A stretch of 51,251 bases of DNA from Thermoanaerobacteraceae bacterium (GCA_030016635.1 JASEJQ010000009.1:1-51251), one strand, 5' to 3'. Positions 5,870 through 43,904 are shown, counted from the stretch's first letter. Translations and numbers: made by a program. Notes: generated by a model from the sequence alone, not told the origin.

Positions 5870-5877
5870 GTAATCTT

Positions 5878-6106
5878 TCATATTTCCTCAGAAAGCTTTG
5901 CTGTGGCAACCACATCTGATATGGAAAGCCTTCCACCAGGGTTTAATACCCTGCAGGCCTCTTTAAAGACCTGCTCTTTTTCCAGAGATAGATTTATAAC
6001 ACATCTCTTGCTAAGAAGCAGTCAAAGCTGCCTCCGCTTCCCAGGTCAAGTACTGTTTAGCCTTCATTTATTTCTTCCATTTCTTAATGGTTCATTGGCA
6101 AACCTC
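5878..6106 (-). pseudogene. arsM-like SAM methyltransferase relic, internally deleted
   Basis: On the minus strand this stretch reads in pieces as an arsenite methyltransferase. A stop-interrupted N-terminal piece contains the SAM motif TVLDLGSGGSFDCFLA. It jumps out of frame to CVINLSLEKEQVF, then VLNPGGRLSISDVVATA, ending at a TGA at 5878-5880. The middle of the gene is missing and at least two stops interrupt the first part. An intact relative lies at 36745-37383. A 72-codon plus-strand frame over the same DNA is only its antisense shadow. The rest of 5870-6246 holds a -10-like TATAAT at 6209 and nothing else I can name. Confidence 0.75.
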
Positions 6107-6246
6107 CCTTTTATAGTTTAACCTCTATCCCTACCATGCCTTTATCCAATATTGACGCGGCCTTTATCTTTTATTTAGAATTTAACATTCTTAACATAAA
6201 TTTTGTTATATAATATATAGAGATAAACAAAGGAGGTTCGGATTTT

Positions 6247-36654: not shown

Positions 36655-36730
36655 TACCCTAAGGGTATTTACAAATTGGTAAGGGTGTGCTATTATTTTT
36701 ATAAAGATACCCCTCTACCCTGGGGGTGTA
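36655..36730 (+). promoter_or_regulatory. promoter with G-tract operators (CsoR/CstR-like)
   Basis: A perfect palindrome TACCCTAAGGGTA (36655-36667) lies before a possible TTGGTA-N18-TATAAA promoter (36676-36705). TACCCTGGGGGTGTA (36716-36730), with ATACCCC just before it, lies after it. Paired C-tract/G-tract repeats of this kind are recognised by CsoR, CstR and RcnR-family metal or sulfur sensors. No such regulator gene is in the window. Confidence 0.5.
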
Positions 36731-36744
36731 AATGAGGTGATAAC

Positions 36745-37383
36745 TTGGATCTGAAACACAGCGTGATTGAAAGATATGAAAAAGAGGCCGAAGGTAACGA
36801 TAACCTGAGCTGTGGAGGTAAAAACATAGAACTGGCGGAACTTAAAGAGGGTGAATCCATTCTTGATATAGGTTGTGGTAGGGGCATAGATGTTTTGAAT
36901 GCAGCGAATGTAATAGGTGAAAGTGGATATGCTGTTGGCATAGATGTAACCCCAGCCATGGTAAAAGCGGCCAATGAGAACCTGAAAAAGAGTGAGGTTA
37001 AAAATGCTTCATTTATACTGGCTGAGGCGGAAAATTTACCATTTGAAGATGATAGGTTTGACGTGGTTATAAGTGACTGTGTCATAAATCATTCTAAAGA
37101 TAAGGAAAAAGTATATAGAGAGCTATACAGGGTTTTAAAACCAGGGGGCAGGATTGTCATATCCGATGTGGTCTCTTTGGAAGAACTTCCCGATGAGATA
37201 GTGAATGACCCTGAAGAATGGGCAGACTGCTTTGGGGGTGCCATACCAGAGGATAGGTATATAAGCATCATAAGAGATGCGGGGTTTAAGGACATTGAGT
37301 ATTTAAAGAGGAGAGAGTATCTGAAAAAGGGATATATGGTGGCGAGCATAACTATAAGAGCCTGTAAAGGAGGTGAATATTGA
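36745..37383 (+). CDS. ArsM-like SAM methyltransferase
   Basis: The class I methyltransferase fold is clear: motif I SILDIGCGRGIDVL near 39, GIDVTPAMVKAA near 66, VISDCVINHSKDKEKV near 108, and VLKPGGRIVISDVVSLEELP near 130. The Cys residues in SCGG, SDCV and WADCFGGA lie where ArsM-type enzymes hold arsenic. At 212 residues it is shorter than typical arsenite methyltransferases (about 260-280), lacking much of the C-terminus. A TTG at 36745 follows GAGGTGA closely. It is the first gene of a five-gene run with a small Cys peptide and a radical SAM enzyme, so methylation of the peptide or of a bound metalloid are both possible. Confidence 0.8.
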   Translation: MDLKHSVIERYEKEAEGNDNLSCGGKNIELAELKEGESILDIGCGRGIDVLNAANVIGESGYAVGIDVTPAMVKAANENLKKSEVKNASFILAEAENLPFEDDRFDVVISDCVINHSKDKEKVYRELYRVLKPGGRIVISDVVSLEELPDEIVNDPEEWADCFGGAIPEDRYISIIRDAGFKDIEYLKRREYLKKGYMVASITIRACKGGEY

Positions 37384-37490
37384 TGAAGGCAGTGACAAAA
37401 AAGAAAAATGATTGCTGCAATGTACAGTCTAAGGGAGTAGCTCAGTGCTGCTCCAAGACTTCCAAACTGGTTGTTGGATGTCATGATTAA
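37383..37490 (+). CDS. 35-residue Cys peptide with 11-residue repeat spacing
   Basis: The ATG overlaps the methyltransferase stop (TGATG) and follows AGGAGGTGAA, so translation is very likely. The peptide has a Lys-rich start and then Cys11-Cys12, Cys22-Cys23 and Cys33-His34, each pair exactly 11 residues after the last. There is no signal peptide. The next gene encodes a radical SAM/SPASM protein, the typical maturase of such peptides, and a hairpin separates the two genes. I do not recognise a named family. It could be a RiPP precursor or a small metal(loid)-binding peptide. Confidence 0.8.
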   Translation: MKAVTKKKNDCCNVQSKGVAQCCSKTSKLVVGCHD

Positions 37491-37493
37491 CCA

Positions 37494-37516
37494 ATGTGGC
37501 GGTATACCCGCCACAT
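37494..37516 (+). promoter_or_regulatory. hairpin between peptide gene and radical SAM gene
   Basis: ATGTGGCGG (37494-37502) pairs perfectly with CCGCCACAT (37508-37516) around a TATAC loop. It starts 4 bases after the peptide stop codon and has no T-run. Such intercistronic hairpins often let a small precursor be made in excess of its modifying enzyme. Confidence 0.75.
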
Positions 37517-37531
37517 CCATGGGGGGATTTG

Positions 37532-38878
37532 ATGTATTTTAGCAGATACAATATTATAGTGCCCTTTGAGGATAAATATGCCATAATCAATCCGCTCTCA
37601 GGCAACCTCGATGTAGCATCACAAGATGAGATAGAGAGGCTTAAAAAGCCAGAAGAGCTGATGGATAATTTTGACCTGTTGGACTATGGCATATCCCGGG
37701 GGTATATCTATGAGAGTAAAGAGGATGAAGAGGTAAGGATAGAAGATGCGTATAGGGAATTTCTGAATATAATGGAGACAAATCAGACGCAGATACTGCT
37801 TATACCAACCTATGGCTGCAACTTCTCATGTATATACTGCTATGAGAGAGGAATACCAGGAAGGCATGATGTCATATCAAAAGAGGCTGTGGATGCCTTT
37901 TTTTATGATATCGAGGAAAGGCTGAAGGATGAAAAGGTAAGGCCATATATCACCCTTTTTGGCGGAGAACCTTTTATTAACTCGGCACATCAGAAAGAGG
38001 CCATGTCATATATAGTGTATAATGCTGCCAAAAAGGGATATGAAATAGCCGCAGTGACAAATGGCTATGACCTGATGGATTATTTGGATATTATAAAGAG
38101 GGCAGATATTAAGGAGATACAGGTAACCTTAGATGGCCCGCCTGAGGTGCATAACAAAAGGCGCAGGCTTATAGGAGGGAAGGACAGCTTTGGAAGGATA
38201 ATTGAGGGTATGCACGCCCTTATTGAAGCGAGGATTCCGGTCAATCTCCGTGTGGTGGTGGATAGGGATAACTATGACAGCCTGCCTGAGCTCGCTGAAA
38301 TACTGGATAGGGAAGGGTTTTTAGACCTGCCTGATGAAACATTTAAGACACAGATAGGCAGAAACTATGAGCTCTTTGAGTGTTCATTAAACCACGGGAG
38401 CCTTATAACACAGGCTGAGCAGTGGGCATATTTCGAGAGGCTCTCCAGAGATTATCCGATACTCAGAAAATTTCATAAGCCTGACTTTAAGGGGATAAGG
38501 AATGCCATTCTCACAGGTTCCATGTATTCACCGACCTTTGACACCTGCCCGGCTGGTAAGAAGGAGTGGGTGTATGACCTCTATGGCGATATATACGGCT
38601 GCACAGCAAGCTGCGGCAGGAAAGACTACAGGCTCGGCACATATTATCCGGAAAGGAAGATATATGAGGATAGGTTGAGACCATGGAGAGAGCGAAATGT
38701 GCTTAACATAAAGGAATGCAGGGAGTGCCCTGTAAGCCTGGTGTGTGGAGGGGGATGCGGTGTGGTGGCCAATGAAAAGAATGGCAGCATATTATCTCCG
38801 GACTGCCACGATATAGGGTCTATATTTGAAAGCGGTATCAAGTATTATAGTAAAGATATAAGGGAGGCGTTACAATGA
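37532..38878 (+). CDS. radical SAM/SPASM peptide-maturase-like protein
   Basis: The 448-residue protein has an N-terminal region of about 90 residues, then the [4Fe-4S] motif C96-x3-C100-x2-C103 (CNFSCIYC), GGEPF near 148, and a C-terminal SPASM domain with Cys near 339, 357, 361, 396, 399, 405, 409 and 424. This layout is that of enzymes that install thioether or other crosslinks in peptides. I choose ATG 37532 after GGGGGG; an in-frame GTG upstream lies inside the hairpin. The stop overlaps the next gene by 4 bp. The peptide at 37383 is its obvious candidate substrate. Confidence 0.9.
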   Translation: MYFSRYNIIVPFEDKYAIINPLSGNLDVASQDEIERLKKPEELMDNFDLLDYGISRGYIYESKEDEEVRIEDAYREFLNIMETNQTQILLIPTYGCNFSCIYCYERGIPGRHDVISKEAVDAFFYDIEERLKDEKVRPYITLFGGEPFINSAHQKEAMSYIVYNAAKKGYEIAAVTNGYDLMDYLDIIKRADIKEIQVTLDGPPEVHNKRRRLIGGKDSFGRIIEGMHALIEARIPVNLRVVVDRDNYDSLPELAEILDREGFLDLPDETFKTQIGRNYELFECSLNHGSLITQAEQWAYFERLSRDYPILRKFHKPDFKGIRNAILTGSMYSPTFDTCPAGKKEWVYDLYGDIYGCTASCGRKDYRLGTYYPERKIYEDRLRPWRERNVLNIKECRECPVSLVCGGGCGVVANEKNGSILSPDCHDIGSIFESGIKYYSKDIREALQ

Positions 38879-40143
38879 TTAGAGAGGTAAATGCGGACAA
38901 TTATGAAGAGGTGGTATTAAAATCCAGGAGGCCGGTAATTGTGGACTTTTATTCTACTGACTGTCCTCCGTGCAATCAACTGGAGCCAATCTATGAGAGG
39001 CTTGCGGAGACCTATGGGAAGCACATGGATTTTATTAAGATTTACAGGCAGGGGAACAAGGAATTTGCAAAGAGCCTGGGTGTTACAGGTAGCCCCACTG
39101 TCCTGTTTTATAGGGATGGCAAAGAGGTAAGAGAGAGGTTAAATGGATACCTGACGAAGCCGGAGGTACGTAAGGCCATAGAACAGGTTATAGGGTTTTC
39201 CATCATGGATAGGGAACCAGAAAGGGTAGAGTGCGATGTGCTGGTCCTTGGTGGTGGACCTGCAGGTCTTACAGCAGCGCTCTATGCCTCACGGGCAAAG
39301 CTAAATACTGTGGTCGTGGATGAGGGAGTAACAGGTGGCCAGGCCGCCAACACATACTACATTGAAAACTACCCTGGCACCAGCGGTTCAATTGAAGGGA
39401 AAATCCTTACGAAGAATATGAGGGAGCAGGCTGAATCCTTTGGCGCAGTTATCGATGACCTCAAGGAAATAGTTGAGATAAAACTCACTGATACAGAGAA
39501 GTACGTAAGGACAGAGGATAAGATATATTTTCCGAAGGCAGTGGTACTGGCAATGGGTGCACAGCCGAGAAAACTTCCTGCAGAGAATGAGGATGTATTC
39601 AGGGGTAAGGGTATACATTACTGTGCCATATGCGACGGTTCCATGTATGAGGGAAAACATGTTGCTGTAATTGGTGGTGGCAATTCAGCCATTCAGGAGA
39701 CACTCTATCTATCCAACATTGCAGATAAGATAACCGTAATTCATGAGTTTGACAACCTACAGGCCTCCAAGGTGCTTCAAGACAAGGTATTTAATAACCC
39801 CAAGGTCAACTTTATCTGGGAGTCCCATGTAGAAAAGGCTGAGGGTGATGAGATGCTAAAGAGGCTTTTCTATAAAAACCTGAAGACAGGAGAGGTTAGC
39901 AGCATAGATGTTGACGGGGCCTTTGTATATATTGGCTTATCACCAAAGACGGATATCTTAAATGGCCAGGTTGAGATAAATCAGTATGGATATGTAAAAA
40001 CAGATGAAGACCTCATGACGAGCGTAAAAGGCGTATTTGCTGCAGGGGATATAAGGGACAAAAAGGTAAGACAGGTAGCTACTGCAGTGGGTGATGGCGC
40101 TACCGTCGGTGTAAATGTCGAGAGGTACTTATCTGGGATATAG
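38875..40143 (+). CDS. thioredoxin-thioredoxin reductase fusion
   Basis: Residues 1-105 are a thioredoxin domain with active site CPPC (DCPPCNQLEP near 30). Residues 118-422 are a flavin reductase with FAD loop VLVLGGGPAGLTAALYA, redox site CAICDG near 252, and nucleotide loop VIGGGNSAIQE. The Arg motif that grips the 2'-phosphate of NADPH (HRRxxxR) is replaced by HEFDNLQASK, so NADH or another donor is likely. The fusion order (thioredoxin first) is less common than the reverse. It probably keeps Cys of the neighbouring peptide or proteins reduced. Confidence 0.9.
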   Translation: MIREVNADNYEEVVLKSRRPVIVDFYSTDCPPCNQLEPIYERLAETYGKHMDFIKIYRQGNKEFAKSLGVTGSPTVLFYRDGKEVRERLNGYLTKPEVRKAIEQVIGFSIMDREPERVECDVLVLGGGPAGLTAALYASRAKLNTVVVDEGVTGGQAANTYYIENYPGTSGSIEGKILTKNMREQAESFGAVIDDLKEIVEIKLTDTEKYVRTEDKIYFPKAVVLAMGAQPRKLPAENEDVFRGKGIHYCAICDGSMYEGKHVAVIGGGNSAIQETLYLSNIADKITVIHEFDNLQASKVLQDKVFNNPKVNFIWESHVEKAEGDEMLKRLFYKNLKTGEVSSIDVDGAFVYIGLSPKTDILNGQVEINQYGYVKTDEDLMTSVKGVFAAGDIRDKKVRQVATAVGDGATVGVNVERYLSGI

Positions 40144-40148
40144 GGGCG

Positions 40149-40880
40149 ATGACAATGGGATGCTGCGATACAGAAATGGAAACGGGGTGTTTGATATGTG
40201 GAAAGGACTTAGTTTATCTGGAAAAGCCGGTATTGAAAAGATGCGAGATATGTGGCAGAGAAGAACTAACTCATGCCCACTGTACGGATGGGCATTACGT
40301 CTGCGACGACTGTCACAGCAAAGATGGCATAGAGGTAATTAAGGAATACTGTCTTAGTACTAACCTGGAAGACCCAATGGAAATAGCGGAAAATATAATG
40401 AAAGACTCAAGGATACCCATGCATGGCCCTGAACACCATGCTCTGGTGCCCGCCGTTATAGTGACAGCATATAAAAATCTAACCGGAAAAGCAGATGATG
40501 AGGATATAATAGAGGCACTGGAAAGGGGAAGGCAGATACCCGGCGGCGCATGCGGCTATTATGGGGCATGCGGAGCAGGGATAGGTGTTGGCGCAGCTAT
40601 AAGTGTCATATTTAAAGCCACACCCATGACACCTCTCAAGAGGTCGAAGGCACACCTGGCTGTTGCTAAGGCCTTAGAAGAGATAGGAAAGGCTGGTGGT
40701 GCCAGGTGCTGCAAGAGATGTACCAGGCTCTCTATAGAGGTGGCAAAGGGATTTTTCAAAGAGGAATTCAATGTGGTCTTCCCAGATGATTACGATATAG
40801 ATACATGTGAGTATACGAAGGTCAATAGAGAATGCCTCTATAAATGTAAATACAGAAGCAGAAAACCCCTGCTTGTATAA
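40149..40880 (+). CDS. Cys-rich DUF5714 protein
   Basis: The 243-residue protein opens with a Cys-rich zinc-ribbon-like part (CC near 5, CLIC near 16, CEIC near 30, then HC and CDDC), followed by a helical domain with GGACGYYGACGAGIGVG near 137 and ARCCKRCTRLS near 184, and a Cys-rich tail. It matches the DUF5714 family, whose function is not known to me; members often accompany or fuse to ArsM-like methyltransferases. It is the last gene of the cluster and starts 5 bases after the reductase stop. Confidence 0.78.
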   Translation: MTMGCCDTEMETGCLICGKDLVYLEKPVLKRCEICGREELTHAHCTDGHYVCDDCHSKDGIEVIKEYCLSTNLEDPMEIAENIMKDSRIPMHGPEHHALVPAVIVTAYKNLTGKADDEDIIEALERGRQIPGGACGYYGACGAGIGVGAAISVIFKATPMTPLKRSKAHLAVAKALEEIGKAGGARCCKRCTRLSIEVAKGFFKEEFNVVFPDDYDIDTCEYTKVNRECLYKCKYRSRKPLLV

Positions 40881-40900
40881 TAAGTAGGGGTTTTATTTGG
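40862..40900 (+). terminator. terminator of the radical SAM operon
   Basis: AAAACCCCTGCTT (40862-40874) pairs with AAGTAGGGGTTTT (40882-40894, one G-U) followed by a T-rich tail. It overlaps the end of the DUF5714 gene. Confidence 0.88.
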
Positions 40901-40993: not shown

Positions 40994-41013
40994 TATAAAA
41001 AGGAGGTGTGAAC

Positions 41014-41283
41014 ATGCCGAGAGGAGATGGAACAGGTCCTATGGGTCTTGGCCCAATGACAGGCAGGCGTATGGGTTTTTGCGCAGGGTATAACAGGCCC
41101 GGCTATATGGGATTTGGAAGATATCCCATGCGGTTCGGGAGAAATCCATATCCCGCTTATTATGCATCCTGGGGGTATGACAAAGACGAAGAAAGAAATT
41201 ATCTGCAAGCAGAAGCAAAATATTTAGAGAAAGAGCTTGAAGAGATTAAGAAAAGATTGGACCAGTTAGATAAAGGCGAATAA
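41014..41283 (+). CDS. DUF5320 small protein
   Basis: This 89-residue protein has a Met/Gly/Arg/Tyr-rich N-terminal half beginning MPRGDGTGPMGLGPMTGR and a charged coiled-coil C-terminal half (YLEKELEEIKKRLDQL). It fits the DUF5320 family, which I know mainly from its regular company with NifX-like, Mrp-like and DUF134 genes, all present here. The function is unknown. ATG 41014 lies 7 bases after AGGAGG. Confidence 0.8.
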   Translation: MPRGDGTGPMGLGPMTGRRMGFCAGYNRPGYMGFGRYPMRFGRNPYPAYYASWGYDKDEERNYLQAEAKYLEKELEEIKKRLDQLDKGE

Positions 41284-41296
41284 ATTATTTTATTGG

Positions 41297-41340
41297 ATCA
41301 GGATACGGTGGTTTTAAACCATCATATCCTGATTTGTTTA
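41297..41340 (+). terminator. terminator after the DUF5320 gene
   Basis: ATCAGGATA (41297-41305) pairs with TATCCTGAT (41325-41333) with an inner GTGGTTT/AAACCAT helix, followed by TTGTTT. Confidence 0.75.
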
Positions 41341-41385
41341 ATGCATCTGCTTGTCATTCATCATATCAGGTGTTAAATCCTTGTT

Positions 41386-41420
41386 ATAAGCATATGTCAA
41401 TATCATATTACATACGCCAT
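41386..41420 (+). promoter_or_regulatory. CATATG palindrome and half-site
   Basis: ATAAGCATATGTCAAT (41386-41401) matches the shared palindrome in its right half, and CATACGCCAT follows at 41411. They lie 150 bp before the secreted protein gene. I cannot place promoter hexamers with confidence in 41421-41554. Confidence 0.5.
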
Positions 41421-41554
41421 CTATGATAATATGAATTGTAAACTCTTTATTTACAAATTCCTCATAAAATCATCACACATACATTACAGTTTATCAAATG
41501 CCTCTGTTATCCTATAATTGAAAACAAAAATAAAAGCAGAAAGGGGTTATAAAA

Positions 41555-42076
41555 ATGAAAAGTGCAAGTTTTAAAAGGTTAGTAGCATCATTGTTGGTTG
41601 GAGGTACACTAATGACAGGAGGGATGGCATTGGCCGCAAGCGATGACAGTATAACCGTCACAGACAATGCCACAACAACAGTGACAAGGCAATACCTGGG
41701 TTTGGGTTATCAGGCTATGAGAGATGGCGAAAGGCCTGGCCTTAGAATCGGTGGTGCTCAAGGTATGAATCAAGAGGTTGCAGACTTCCTCGGGGTTTCT
41801 ATTGAAGACCTGATAGCAAAAAGACAGTCAGGAATGTCTCTGGCAGACATAGCAAAGGAAAAGGGAATCACAGAGGAGCAGCTTATAAACTTTATATCGG
41901 AGAATCGAAATGAAGCCTTGAAAAAGCTGGTAGATGAAGGCAAAATAACACAGGCGCAGTTAGAGCAGCATCAGACCTATATGGAACAAAGGATAAAGCA
42001 AAACATTGAAAGCACTTCAACTGGTCCAAAGGGCTTTGGAAATGGAATGGCACAGGGAAGAAGAGCCGGTAGATAA
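41555..42076 (+). CDS. secreted protein of unknown function
   Basis: The 173-residue protein has a signal peptide (charged start, SLLVGGTLMTGGMALAAS, cleavage near 29). The mature part holds a short helical repeat-like domain: VADFLGVSIEDLIAKRQSGMSLADIAKEKGITEEQLINFI, similar to DUF2680/YckD-type and other small LysM-unrelated secreted helical proteins. The tail is Gly/Arg-rich. I do not recognise its function. AAAGGGG precedes the ATG. It follows the DUF5320 gene on the same strand and has its own terminator. Confidence 0.7.
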   Translation: MKSASFKRLVASLLVGGTLMTGGMALAASDDSITVTDNATTTVTRQYLGLGYQAMRDGERPGLRIGGAQGMNQEVADFLGVSIEDLIAKRQSGMSLADIAKEKGITEEQLINFISENRNEALKKLVDEGKITQAQLEQHQTYMEQRIKQNIESTSTGPKGFGNGMAQGRRAGR

Positions 42077-42090
42077 TTTTTAACACTTAT

Positions 42091-42132
42091 TAATTAAGGG
42101 GCGGCTAAGGCTGCCCCCTAATTGTATTTTTT
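42091..42132 (+). terminator. terminator between convergent genes
   Basis: A GC-rich hairpin (GGGGC..GCCCC core near 42098-42117) flanked by A/T arms is followed by a long T-run. It ends the secreted protein gene and lies just past the DUF134 gene. Confidence 0.8.
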
Positions 42133-42143
42133 TTCATCAATGT

Positions 42144-42623
42144 TTATTCTTGTCCCCTTCTATGCCTCTTTCTTTTACAGCACATATTGCTGCAGAATTT
42201 GTCTTGAAAAACGCATTCTAAATCATGCCCACCACAATTTGGGCATATGAATCCTTCTTTTTTTATCTTTTCTAAATCCTCAAAGGTTTCATCCCACATA
42301 GTACCACATTCTTTGCACATTACCCTGCATACGTTCCTTACATAGTTTCCGCCTTTTACTTTGATTGCTTTACCATTGACCAGGCTATCTGCCACCTTTT
42401 TTCTTGCAGAGCTTAATATGTTCTGGAATGTAGCCCTGGATACATTCATAAGCTTTGCACATTCTTCCTGGTCTAACCCTATAAGGTCTTTTAGCCTGAT
42501 AGCTTCCAGTTCCTCAACCGCAAGGATATTTTCATCATAAACTCCTTCTGGAACATTGTATGGTATATATTGACTTACTGAAGGCAAAGCAGATATTCTT
42601 CTTTGTTTTACAGGTCTTGGCAC
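42144..42623 (-). CDS. DUF134 HTH protein with Cys cluster
   Basis: The 159-residue protein begins MPRPVKQRRI, typical of DUF134. Residues 35-85 form a sigma-70 region 4-like helix-turn-helix (EELEAIRLKDLIGLDQEECAKLMNVSRATFQNILS). The second half holds CRVMCKECG, CPNCGG and a CSNMCC tail, which could bind zinc or an Fe-S cluster. It is a plausible DNA-binding regulator of the CATATG sites around it. The gap 42624-42937 holds the divergent promoter region and a CATATGACAAT half-site near 42869. Confidence 0.88.
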   Translation of the reverse strand: MPRPVKQRRISALPSVSQYIPYNVPEGVYDENILAVEELEAIRLKDLIGLDQEECAKLMNVSRATFQNILSSARKKVADSLVNGKAIKVKGGNYVRNVCRVMCKECGTMWDETFEDLEKIKKEGFICPNCGGHDLECVFQDKFCSNMCCKRKRHRRGQE

Positions 42624-42868
42624 AAAAATACCTCCATAACTTTTCTTTTATCTATTATCTATATAATATTCCTAAATTGGCCAAATATCAATGCCATATA
42701 TTATCCATACTTCTTCTAATTCAACTGTCGACTATTAGGGTGTGTATTCTCTTTGTTAAATAATATAAATGTGTAATATACCTCCTTTTATTTGTAAATT
42801 TTATTAGTATCTTTGTAGATCGAATACATTGCTAATTCTTAATAACACAATATCAACATTATTGGCAA

Positions 42869-42911
42869 CATATGACAATAATTATTTTTAAAGGGACTCT
42901 TATGGTATAAT
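42869..42911 (+). promoter_or_regulatory. CATATG half-site and -10 before the CoA-binding gene
   Basis: CATATGACAAT (42869-42879) matches one half of the shared palindrome, with an ATTGGC stretch just upstream. TATAAT is at 42906-42911; the -35 is unclear. The site lies between the divergent DUF134 and CoA-binding genes. Confidence 0.5.
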
Positions 42912-42937
42912 ACTTTACAGAAGGGGGGGATATATTA

Positions 42938-43327
42938 ATGGATGAGTTAATAAATGAAGCATTAAGCAAAAAGGCATGGGCGATTATTGGAGCAACACAG
43001 AGAAAGGAGAAGTTTGGCTATAAGATTTATAAAGCATTAAAGGACCATGGATATGAAGTATACCCTGTAAACTCACGCTATGATGAAATAGACGGTGAAA
43101 AATGCTATCCTGATCTTTCTTCATTGCCAAAGATACCTGAGGTAGTAGATCTTGTGATATCTCCAAGCAAATCTGAGGAATTTATAAGAGAAGCAGCTAA
43201 ACTCGGTTGTGAATTTATTTGGTTTCAACCAGGGGCTGAAAGTGATGAAATGATAAATCTATCTAAGGATTTGGGCCTTAAGGTTATAAGCGGTGTCTGT
43301 GCAATGTTTGAAGCCGGACGAGTATAA
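42938..43327 (+). CDS. CoA-binding domain protein (YccU type)
   Basis: This stand-alone CoA_binding Rossmann domain has 129 residues: KAWAIIGATQRKEKFGYKIYKALKDHGYEVYPVN at 12-45 and VVDLVISPSKSEEFIREAAKLG near 69, ending FEAGRV. These small proteins bind CoA or a nucleotide, but their role is unclear. GGGGGG precedes the ATG. It is followed by its own terminator, so it is a single-gene unit. Confidence 0.88.
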   Translation: MDELINEALSKKAWAIIGATQRKEKFGYKIYKALKDHGYEVYPVNSRYDEIDGEKCYPDLSSLPKIPEVVDLVISPSKSEEFIREAAKLGCEFIWFQPGAESDEMINLSKDLGLKVISGVCAMFEAGRV

Positions 43328-43338
43328 CAACAAAATTT

Positions 43339-43378
43339 TAAGGGCGGTAGATAAAATACTTATTTACCGCCCTTATTT
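43339..43378 (+). terminator. terminator after the CoA-binding gene
   Basis: A 16-bp stem (43339-43354 with 43360-43375, one G-U pair) and a 5-nt loop; the T-run is short. Confidence 0.82.
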
Positions 43379-43468
43379 CATAATTAAAAAGACGATGCCT
43401 GAACTGTTTGAGTTACTTCTAGGAGCAGTTTAGTTGCCTCGTGGTTAATACACGTAATGCATAGAAAT

Positions 43469-43523
43469 ATTATTGACATATGTCAATAATAAAGCTAAAA
43501 TATATTTAGCATATGCTAAATAT
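43469..43523 (+). promoter_or_regulatory. promoter with two perfect 22-bp palindromes
   Basis: TTGACA (43473-43478) and TAAAAT (43496-43501) are 17 bp apart. A perfect 22-bp palindrome at 43469-43490 with core ATTGACATATGTCAAT covers the -35. A second at 43502-43523 with core TTTAGCATATGCTAAA follows the -10 directly. The layout copies that at 40936-40993. Confidence 0.85.
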
Positions 43524-43538
43524 GAGGAGGTGAAGAAG

Positions 43539-43904
43539 ATGAGAGTTGCTATTTCATCTACAGGGACTGACATTGATTCAATAGTAGATGAAAGGTTTGG
43601 AAGGGCGAGGTATTTTATCATTGTAGACACTGAAACCGGTGAGCATGAAGCTATAGATAACGAAGCATACCAATTGTCAGGCGGGGCAGGGGCCAAGACG
43701 GCTCAAATGATTATAGAAAAAGGGTCAGAAGCTGTCATATCAAGTAATATTGGACCGAATGCCATGGACGTAATGGAGAAAGCAGGGATAAGAGTATACC
43801 GTGCTTATAATATGTCAGTTAAAGAAGCAGTAGATTTATTTAATAAAGGGCTGCTTCAAGAGATATTGCAACCAACATCAAAGGGGCACCATGGGGGAAT
43901 TTGA
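43539..43904 (+). CDS. NifX/NafY-like Fe-Mo cofactor domain protein
   Basis: This 121-residue protein has the dinitrogenase iron-molybdenum cofactor-binding fold: VAISSTGTDIDSIVDERFGRARYFIIVD at the start and IGPNAMDVMEKAGIRVYRA near 78. Family members bind Fe-S or Fe-Mo cluster precursors, but stand-alone forms are common in non-fixing anaerobes. I take ATG 43539 after GAGGAGGTGA. It ends 5 bases before the next gene, an Fe-S P-loop ATPase; no nitrogenase gene is seen. Confidence 0.88.
   Translation: MRVAISSTGTDIDSIVDERFGRARYFIIVDTETGEHEAIDNEAYQLSGGAGAKTAQMIIEKGSEAVISSNIGPNAMDVMEKAGIRVYRAYNMSVKEAVDLFNKGLLQEILQPTSKGHHGGI

Follow-up and report, generated by a model that had tools for sequence, protein, structure and literature searches.

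The five-gene cluster analysed here represents, with a probability of about 0.78, an undescribed and widespread RiPP cassette that produces an intracellular modified thiol peptide matured by a radical SAM enzyme. It is located on the + strand at 36745-40880 of the window, i.e. the whole stretch of 51,251 bases that was analysed and that constitutes a contig of a 2.35 Mb bacterial genome, and it comprises five tightly packed genes preceded by one promoter and followed by one strong terminator. A first-pass annotation of the window had proposed these five ORFs with their packing, their own promoter and a single terminator, all of which were confirmed, and had interpreted the cluster as a RiPP locus with a possible role in binding or methylating a metal or metalloid. 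The RiPP part of that interpretation is strongly supported, while we infer, rather than observe, a metalloid, metal or sulfane sulfur role. The statement in the annotation that no pathway with this gene set had been described is borne out by NCBIfam (June 2026) and by the open-access papers searched, which also yielded nothing on CefB, DUF5714 or the peptide motif. The features of the locus, with positions counted from the first base of the window, are as follows.

36655..36667, no strand: TACCCTAAGGGTA palindrome just 5′ of the promoter, a possible second operator judged by its sequence and not conserved in relatives
36668..36696, + strand: sigma-70-type promoter, TTTACA-17-TATTAT with TG before the -10 box (10/12 matches; aligned in orthologous promoters)
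36708..36728, no strand: G/C-run pseudo-palindrome TACCCCTCTACCCTGGGGGTG, candidate CsoR/RcnR-type operator (found upstream of the cassette in 12/52 loci vs 1.07 expected by shuffling)
36745..37383, + strand: ArsM-like SAM methyltransferase, 212 aa (TTG start; Pfam Methyltransf_31, 3e-39)
37383..37490, + strand: precursor peptide MKAVTKKKNDCCNVQSKGVAQCCSKTSKLVVGCHD, 35 residues (ATG start; core kept in 50 loci; co-occurrence with the maturase 20/20)
37532..38878, + strand: radical SAM/SPASM peptide maturase, 448 aa (Pfam Radical_SAM, 1e-21; CX3CX2C at 96-103; seven SPASM cysteines)
38875..40143, + strand: thioredoxin (CPPC)-thioredoxin reductase (CAIC) fusion, 422 aa (Pfam Thioredoxin, 3e-20; Pyr_redox_2, 5e-47)
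40149..40880, + strand: DUF5714 Cys-rich protein, 243 aa (Pfam DUF5714, 3e-62)
about 40862..40894, + strand: intrinsic terminator (-21.6 kcal/mol, z = -5.3)

The stop codon of the methyltransferase gene overlaps the start codon of the peptide gene (TGATG), and the peptide ORF has its own ribosome-binding site (GGAGGTG 5′ of the ATG). A 41-nt gap separates the peptide and radical SAM genes, the radical SAM and thioredoxin-thioredoxin reductase (Trx-TrxR) genes overlap by 4 nt (ATGA), a gap of 5 nt precedes the DUF5714 gene, and the terminator, a long and stable hairpin, closes the five-gene unit.

The precursor peptide and its co-occurrence with the maturase gene

Cassette loci were found in Bacillota, Bacteroidota, Ignavibacteria, Myxococcota, Spirochaetia and Leptospiraceae, these names being taken from the titles of the assembly records, many of which are MAGs. 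Gene content was established by tblastn over 52 loci and is counted for 51, the outlier L055 (30-33% identity) being left out; the peptide was found in 50 of these loci, the methyltransferase with a CxxNH motif in 50, thioredoxin in 49, thioredoxin reductase in 48 and DUF5714 in 22, and short contigs among the loci may hide genes. No recognisable peptide was seen in the sequence covered for L039, and no cassette was found on viral contigs, which gave one weak radical SAM match. Gene order varies between loci; L038, for instance, has its peptide and radical SAM genes ~7 kb apart and on opposite strands. Locus L055 (2547-6009), from a Desulfobacteraceae MAG, is a distant relative with a radical SAM protein of 30% identity, a 66-aa peptide containing VAFCCSKAS and, encoded upstream, a different type of methyltransferase, and possibly belongs to a sister RiPP family. 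Locus L122 (8200-13457) harbours two tandem related radical SAM genes together with a gene for an M50-like protein and a short reading frame whose product ends in CINLCCWNCCFQI.

The C-terminal 16 residues of the peptide read A-Q-C-C-[SA]-K-x-S-x-x-[VI]-x-G-C-H-[DN] in 50 of the 51 related loci, with A, Q, C, C, K, G, C and H invariant over the 50, several of these positions having belonged to the query itself for the 13 loci that were fetched with the peptide pattern. The reading frame is kept in all 50 loci, and pairwise comparison of the core codons revealed 8315 synonymous vs 4336 amino-acid differences. The core is the same irrespective of whether the peptide gene is located 5′ of the radical SAM gene, 3′ of it, or ~7 kb away on the opposite strand (L041, L038). 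Peptide length ranges from 30 to 43 residues, most peptides start with M-[KR]-x-[VIL], and no family model matched the peptide. The CC-x9-CC-x9-C spacing that had been noted at first is exact in the window, but universal conservation is confined to its second half, CC-x9-C; most Bacillota and Myxococcota peptides also have the first CC pair, which is absent from those of Bacteroidota (Bacteroidales), Ignavibacteria, Spirochaetia and Leptospiraceae.

Twenty-six of the 51 loci were retrieved from a genome contig collection by a radical SAM query that carried no peptide requirement, and 25 of these 26 contain the peptide, while all 13 loci retrieved solely via the peptide have radical SAM and methyltransferase genes adjoining. 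Among 61 relatives, the 12 that a DNA pattern of the peptide core alone matched were exactly those with a close radical SAM homologue. In a sample of 398 genomes from one phylum, which is the scope of the co-occurrence test, a peptide-only DNA pattern matched 20 genomes and the reversed pattern, used as a control, matched zero, and a radical SAM search at E < 1e-100 returned the same 20 genomes (peptide in 20/20 vs 0/378). Apart from a fragment in one genome, the next radical SAM matches had an E value of 4e-64 and 32-33% identity. The chance agreement of two independent 20-in-398 sets is ~10^-33, the true figure being larger because this calculation ignores the relatedness of the genomes. The first-pass annotation had staked its RiPP interpretation on the peptide not being missing from homologous radical SAM loci and on its frame being conserved in relatives, and on both counts the searches came out in its favour. 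The fragment just mentioned (G187:C3:1686089-1686472) encodes 128 aa that are 55% identical to the maturase C-terminus; it is not accompanied by the peptide and is possibly the remnant of a lost cassette.

The enzymes of the cassette

The cysteines of the CX3CX2C motif (C96, C100 and C103) and of the SPASM domain (C339, C357, C396, C399, C405, C409 and C425) are invariant in 26 maturase sequences. The closest solved structure is CteB, both by sequence and by predicted structure (pLDDT 92), the latter matching next anSME, TigE, ChlB and SuiB, all being enzymes that act on peptides or proteins. The N-terminus of the model displays the beta-beta-beta-alpha-alpha-alpha (beta3-alpha3) order of RRE domains, and this predicted order may correspond to a leader-binding RRE. 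When four cassette maturases were compared with the maturase models of NCBIfam (June 2026), including Cef, SCIFF, Clo7bot and PapB, none scored above cut-off. The nearest model is CefB (NF038107, of a Cys-every-fifth RiPP; 169 bits vs a cut-off of 600), which resembles the cassette in having a radical SAM/SPASM enzyme beside a Cys-containing peptide, whereas the cassette peptide is devoid of the Cys-every-fifth repeat. To our knowledge, the methyltransferase/Trx-TrxR set is no part of the description of the CefB system. The SCIFF/CteB and PapB ranthipeptide maturases are alike to the cassette enzyme in that CteB is nearest by sequence and fold and in the Cys-centred cross-linking that we presume for the cassette, but the latter enzyme falls far below the cut-offs of these families (88 of 425 and 99 of 340 bits) and its peptide has no six-Cys pattern and no CX3D/E, the PapB motif (PMC9413430), as the core holds only C-x3-S. 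The maturase would bind the peptide via a short N-terminal part and modify the core, most likely by introducing a Cys-centred thioether cross-link of the CteB/PapB kind, the cross-link type being a guess owing to the lack of the ranthipeptide motif.

The methyltransferase aligns with solved ArsM enzymes, its Cys112 and Cys162 aligning with Cys174 and Cys224 of CmArsM, in which As(III) is bound via Cys72, Cys174 and Cys224 (PMC12608789). For Cys23 the correspondence with Cys72 is one of position alone, since Cys72 lies N-terminal to the aligned ArsM segments. All three cysteines are present in the cassette copies compared; they are not special to the cassette, however, since non-cassette ArsM homologues mostly keep them. 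In a tree that also included 30 ArsM proteins scoring above the family cut-off and 7 further proteins, the cassette methyltransferases (picked by the CxxNH motif, where ArsM proteins have CxxNL) form a single clade with 100/99 support, apart from all of these, and the enzyme of the window scores 211 bits on NF008823, under the cut-off of 263. Its likeness to ArsM/AS3MT consists of the fold, the two aligned arsenite-binding cysteines and the third by position, but beyond motif, clade and score it also differs in having neither the Cys-rich part at the N-terminus nor the C-terminal domain. This ArsM-clade enzyme would act either on the peptide or on a soft element that the peptide thiols hold. 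Canonical ArsM over the cut-off was detected in 2/10 cassette carriers vs 28/109 non-carriers (119 genomes), so that the cassette is not an add-on to canonical ArsM. A canonical arsM operon was rejected on the basis of the methyltransferase clade and the neighbour genes. The window genome has a canonical-type arsM only as a decayed remnant, at 5875-6130 of the window on the - strand between pyrE and a Cof-type hydrolase gene, with the motifs LDLGSG and CVINLS in different frames.

The active site of the cassette thioredoxins is CPPC, CAPC, CSPC or CIPC (C[PASI]PC), not CGPC, and the thioredoxin reductase of the window, with its CAIC site, passes TIGR01292 (344.2 vs a cut-off of 343.45); in Anaeromyxobacter the two proteins are encoded by separate genes. 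The fusion with its unusual CPPC site may keep the peptide cysteines reduced or may recycle the mature product. The DUF5714 protein passes the Pfam gathering score (209.9 vs 26.2), and although present in the window, where it had been taken as a member of the set, it is optional (22/51 loci), its domain being fused to the maturase C-terminus in five loci (L032-L036). Over most of its length it aligns with the MbdU double selenoprotein (NF045648; E 3e-45), differing from the latter in its score of 155 bits vs a cut-off of 600 and in being standalone or fused to the maturase; where present, it could be a metal-binding or electron-carrying accessory of the maturase. Its predicted model (pLDDT 73) had no significant match in the PDB, and the top fold match, the [4Fe-4S] cysteine desulfidase CyuA (probability 0.28), was not relied on.

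Neighbouring genes, the promoter and the possible role of the product

A scan of 77 operon neighbours gave DUF302 (9), thioredoxin (5) and DUF1847 (4) as the most frequent families, and the 25 commonest neighbour families contained no ars gene, no transporter or metal exporter and no protease or peptidase. The product is therefore most likely intracellular, as neither an exporter nor a protease is a constant partner. Neighbour genes differ by lineage; in other phyla they encode, among others, DUF302, thioredoxin, DUF1847, OsmC and an SQR-like flavoprotein, and one DUF1847 copy bears, by eye, a rhodanese-like stretch at its end. In the window the cassette is followed, at 41008-43904, by DUF5320, DUF2680-like, DUF134, CoA-binding and NifX-like genes, and DUF134 and NifX-like genes were also observed near the cassettes of L033, L034 and L051.

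The pseudo-palindromes to which CsoR-RcnR proteins bind contain G or C runs of 4 or more (PMC10318464). A promoter element of this kind, a C4-5...G4-5 palindrome just 3′ of the -10 box, is present in 11/11 Thermoanaerobacterales loci and in one further locus, and is thus nearly confined to this order, the cassette promoters of which carry, as judged from sequence, a candidate CsoR-type operator. The name of the order is our interpretation of gene content and relatives. Over the whole genome a loose form of the pattern was as frequent as in a control, for which reason promoter-restricted counts were used. The window genome harbours two CsoR genes, of which one precedes a thioredoxin gene, and a similar element occurs in one CsoR promoter. 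At L167:4234-4910 a G/C palindrome lies between a csoR-type gene and the thioredoxin gene that comes next.

The product may serve in thiol-based handling of a thiophilic element, be it a metalloid, a soft metal or sulfane sulfur, the link to metals resting on the methyltransferase cysteines and the operator since the commonest neighbours lack ars genes and metal exporters. The methyltransferase points to a metalloid and the operator to copper or sulfane sulfur, and we regard these two possibilities as about equal and each as tentative; both are specific forms of the RiPP cassette and do not exclude it. According to the former, As(III) or a similar element (Sb, Se, Te) would be bound by the peptide's CC and C thiols and methylated by the ArsM-clade enzyme, Trx/TrxR would provide the reduction required for arsenic methylation, and the radical SAM enzyme would build the binding site or add an organic group. 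This is consistent with the invariance in cassette methyltransferases of the cysteines corresponding to those of ArsM, with Trx/TrxR/NADPH being a known reductant system for AS3MT (PMC12608789), and with the resemblance, albeit well under cut-off, of DUF5714 to the metal-binding MbdU, but it is weakened by the traits that set the methyltransferase apart from ArsM, by the retention of the same cysteines outside the cassette, by the lack of enrichment of canonical ArsM among carriers, by the absence of ars genes from the commonest neighbour families and by an operator that is CsoR-type and not ArsR-type.

Alternatively, the cassette might answer persulfide or Cu(I) stress via a CsoR/CstR-family repressor, the modified peptide being a sulfur carrier or a Cu(I) buffer that is kept reduced by Trx/TrxR. 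The operator in 11/11 Thermoanaerobacterales promoters, the CsoR gene that precedes a thioredoxin gene, and the DUF302, thioredoxin, DUF1847, OsmC and SQR-like neighbours in other phyla argue for this role, whereas the operator occurs almost solely in one order, no Cu exporter is near, the neighbour genes depend on lineage, and it is not obvious what a dedicated methyltransferase would do in the chemistry of copper or persulfides.

Many radical SAM RiPPs, for example sactipeptides, are secreted compounds of the antimicrobial or signalling type, and with export genes that are variable or distant the present peptide might be another; this is unlikely given that its core, unlike that of diversifying bacteriocins, is nearly invariant across phyla, that Trx/TrxR is constant and that the commonest neighbour families include neither transporter nor protease. 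Finally, that the small ORF, being short and situated between two genes, is a regulatory leader or arose by chance while the radical SAM enzyme acts elsewhere is largely refuted and highly improbable, owing to the excess of synonymous changes, its own ribosome-binding site, the same core in all positions relative to the radical SAM gene and, for a chance ORF, amino-acid conservation coupled with genome-by-genome co-occurrence.

Implications

The near-fixed 16 residues of the core, which span Thermoanaerobacterales to Bacteroidales and Anaeromyxobacter, combined with a shared enzyme set and the lack of a constant exporter, make the product of the RiPP cassette look more like a cofactor or a detoxification product than an antibiotic. 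More speculatively, and with a fairly low probability, the cassette might build a thiol cofactor of ribosomal origin, which could be an organometalloid peptide or one that binds metal, through radical cross-linking, methylation by an ArsM-clade enzyme and recycling by its own TrxR; in anaerobes of several phyla this cofactor would be used inside the cell as low-molecular-weight thiols are in other organisms. As its methyltransferase reaches 211 bits on the arsenite methyltransferase model, surveys of arsM could count it as an arsenic gene, and the CxxNH motif combined with an adjoining peptide would allow it to be told from ArsM. The cassette itself provides a well-defined gene set in which new radical chemistry can be tested.
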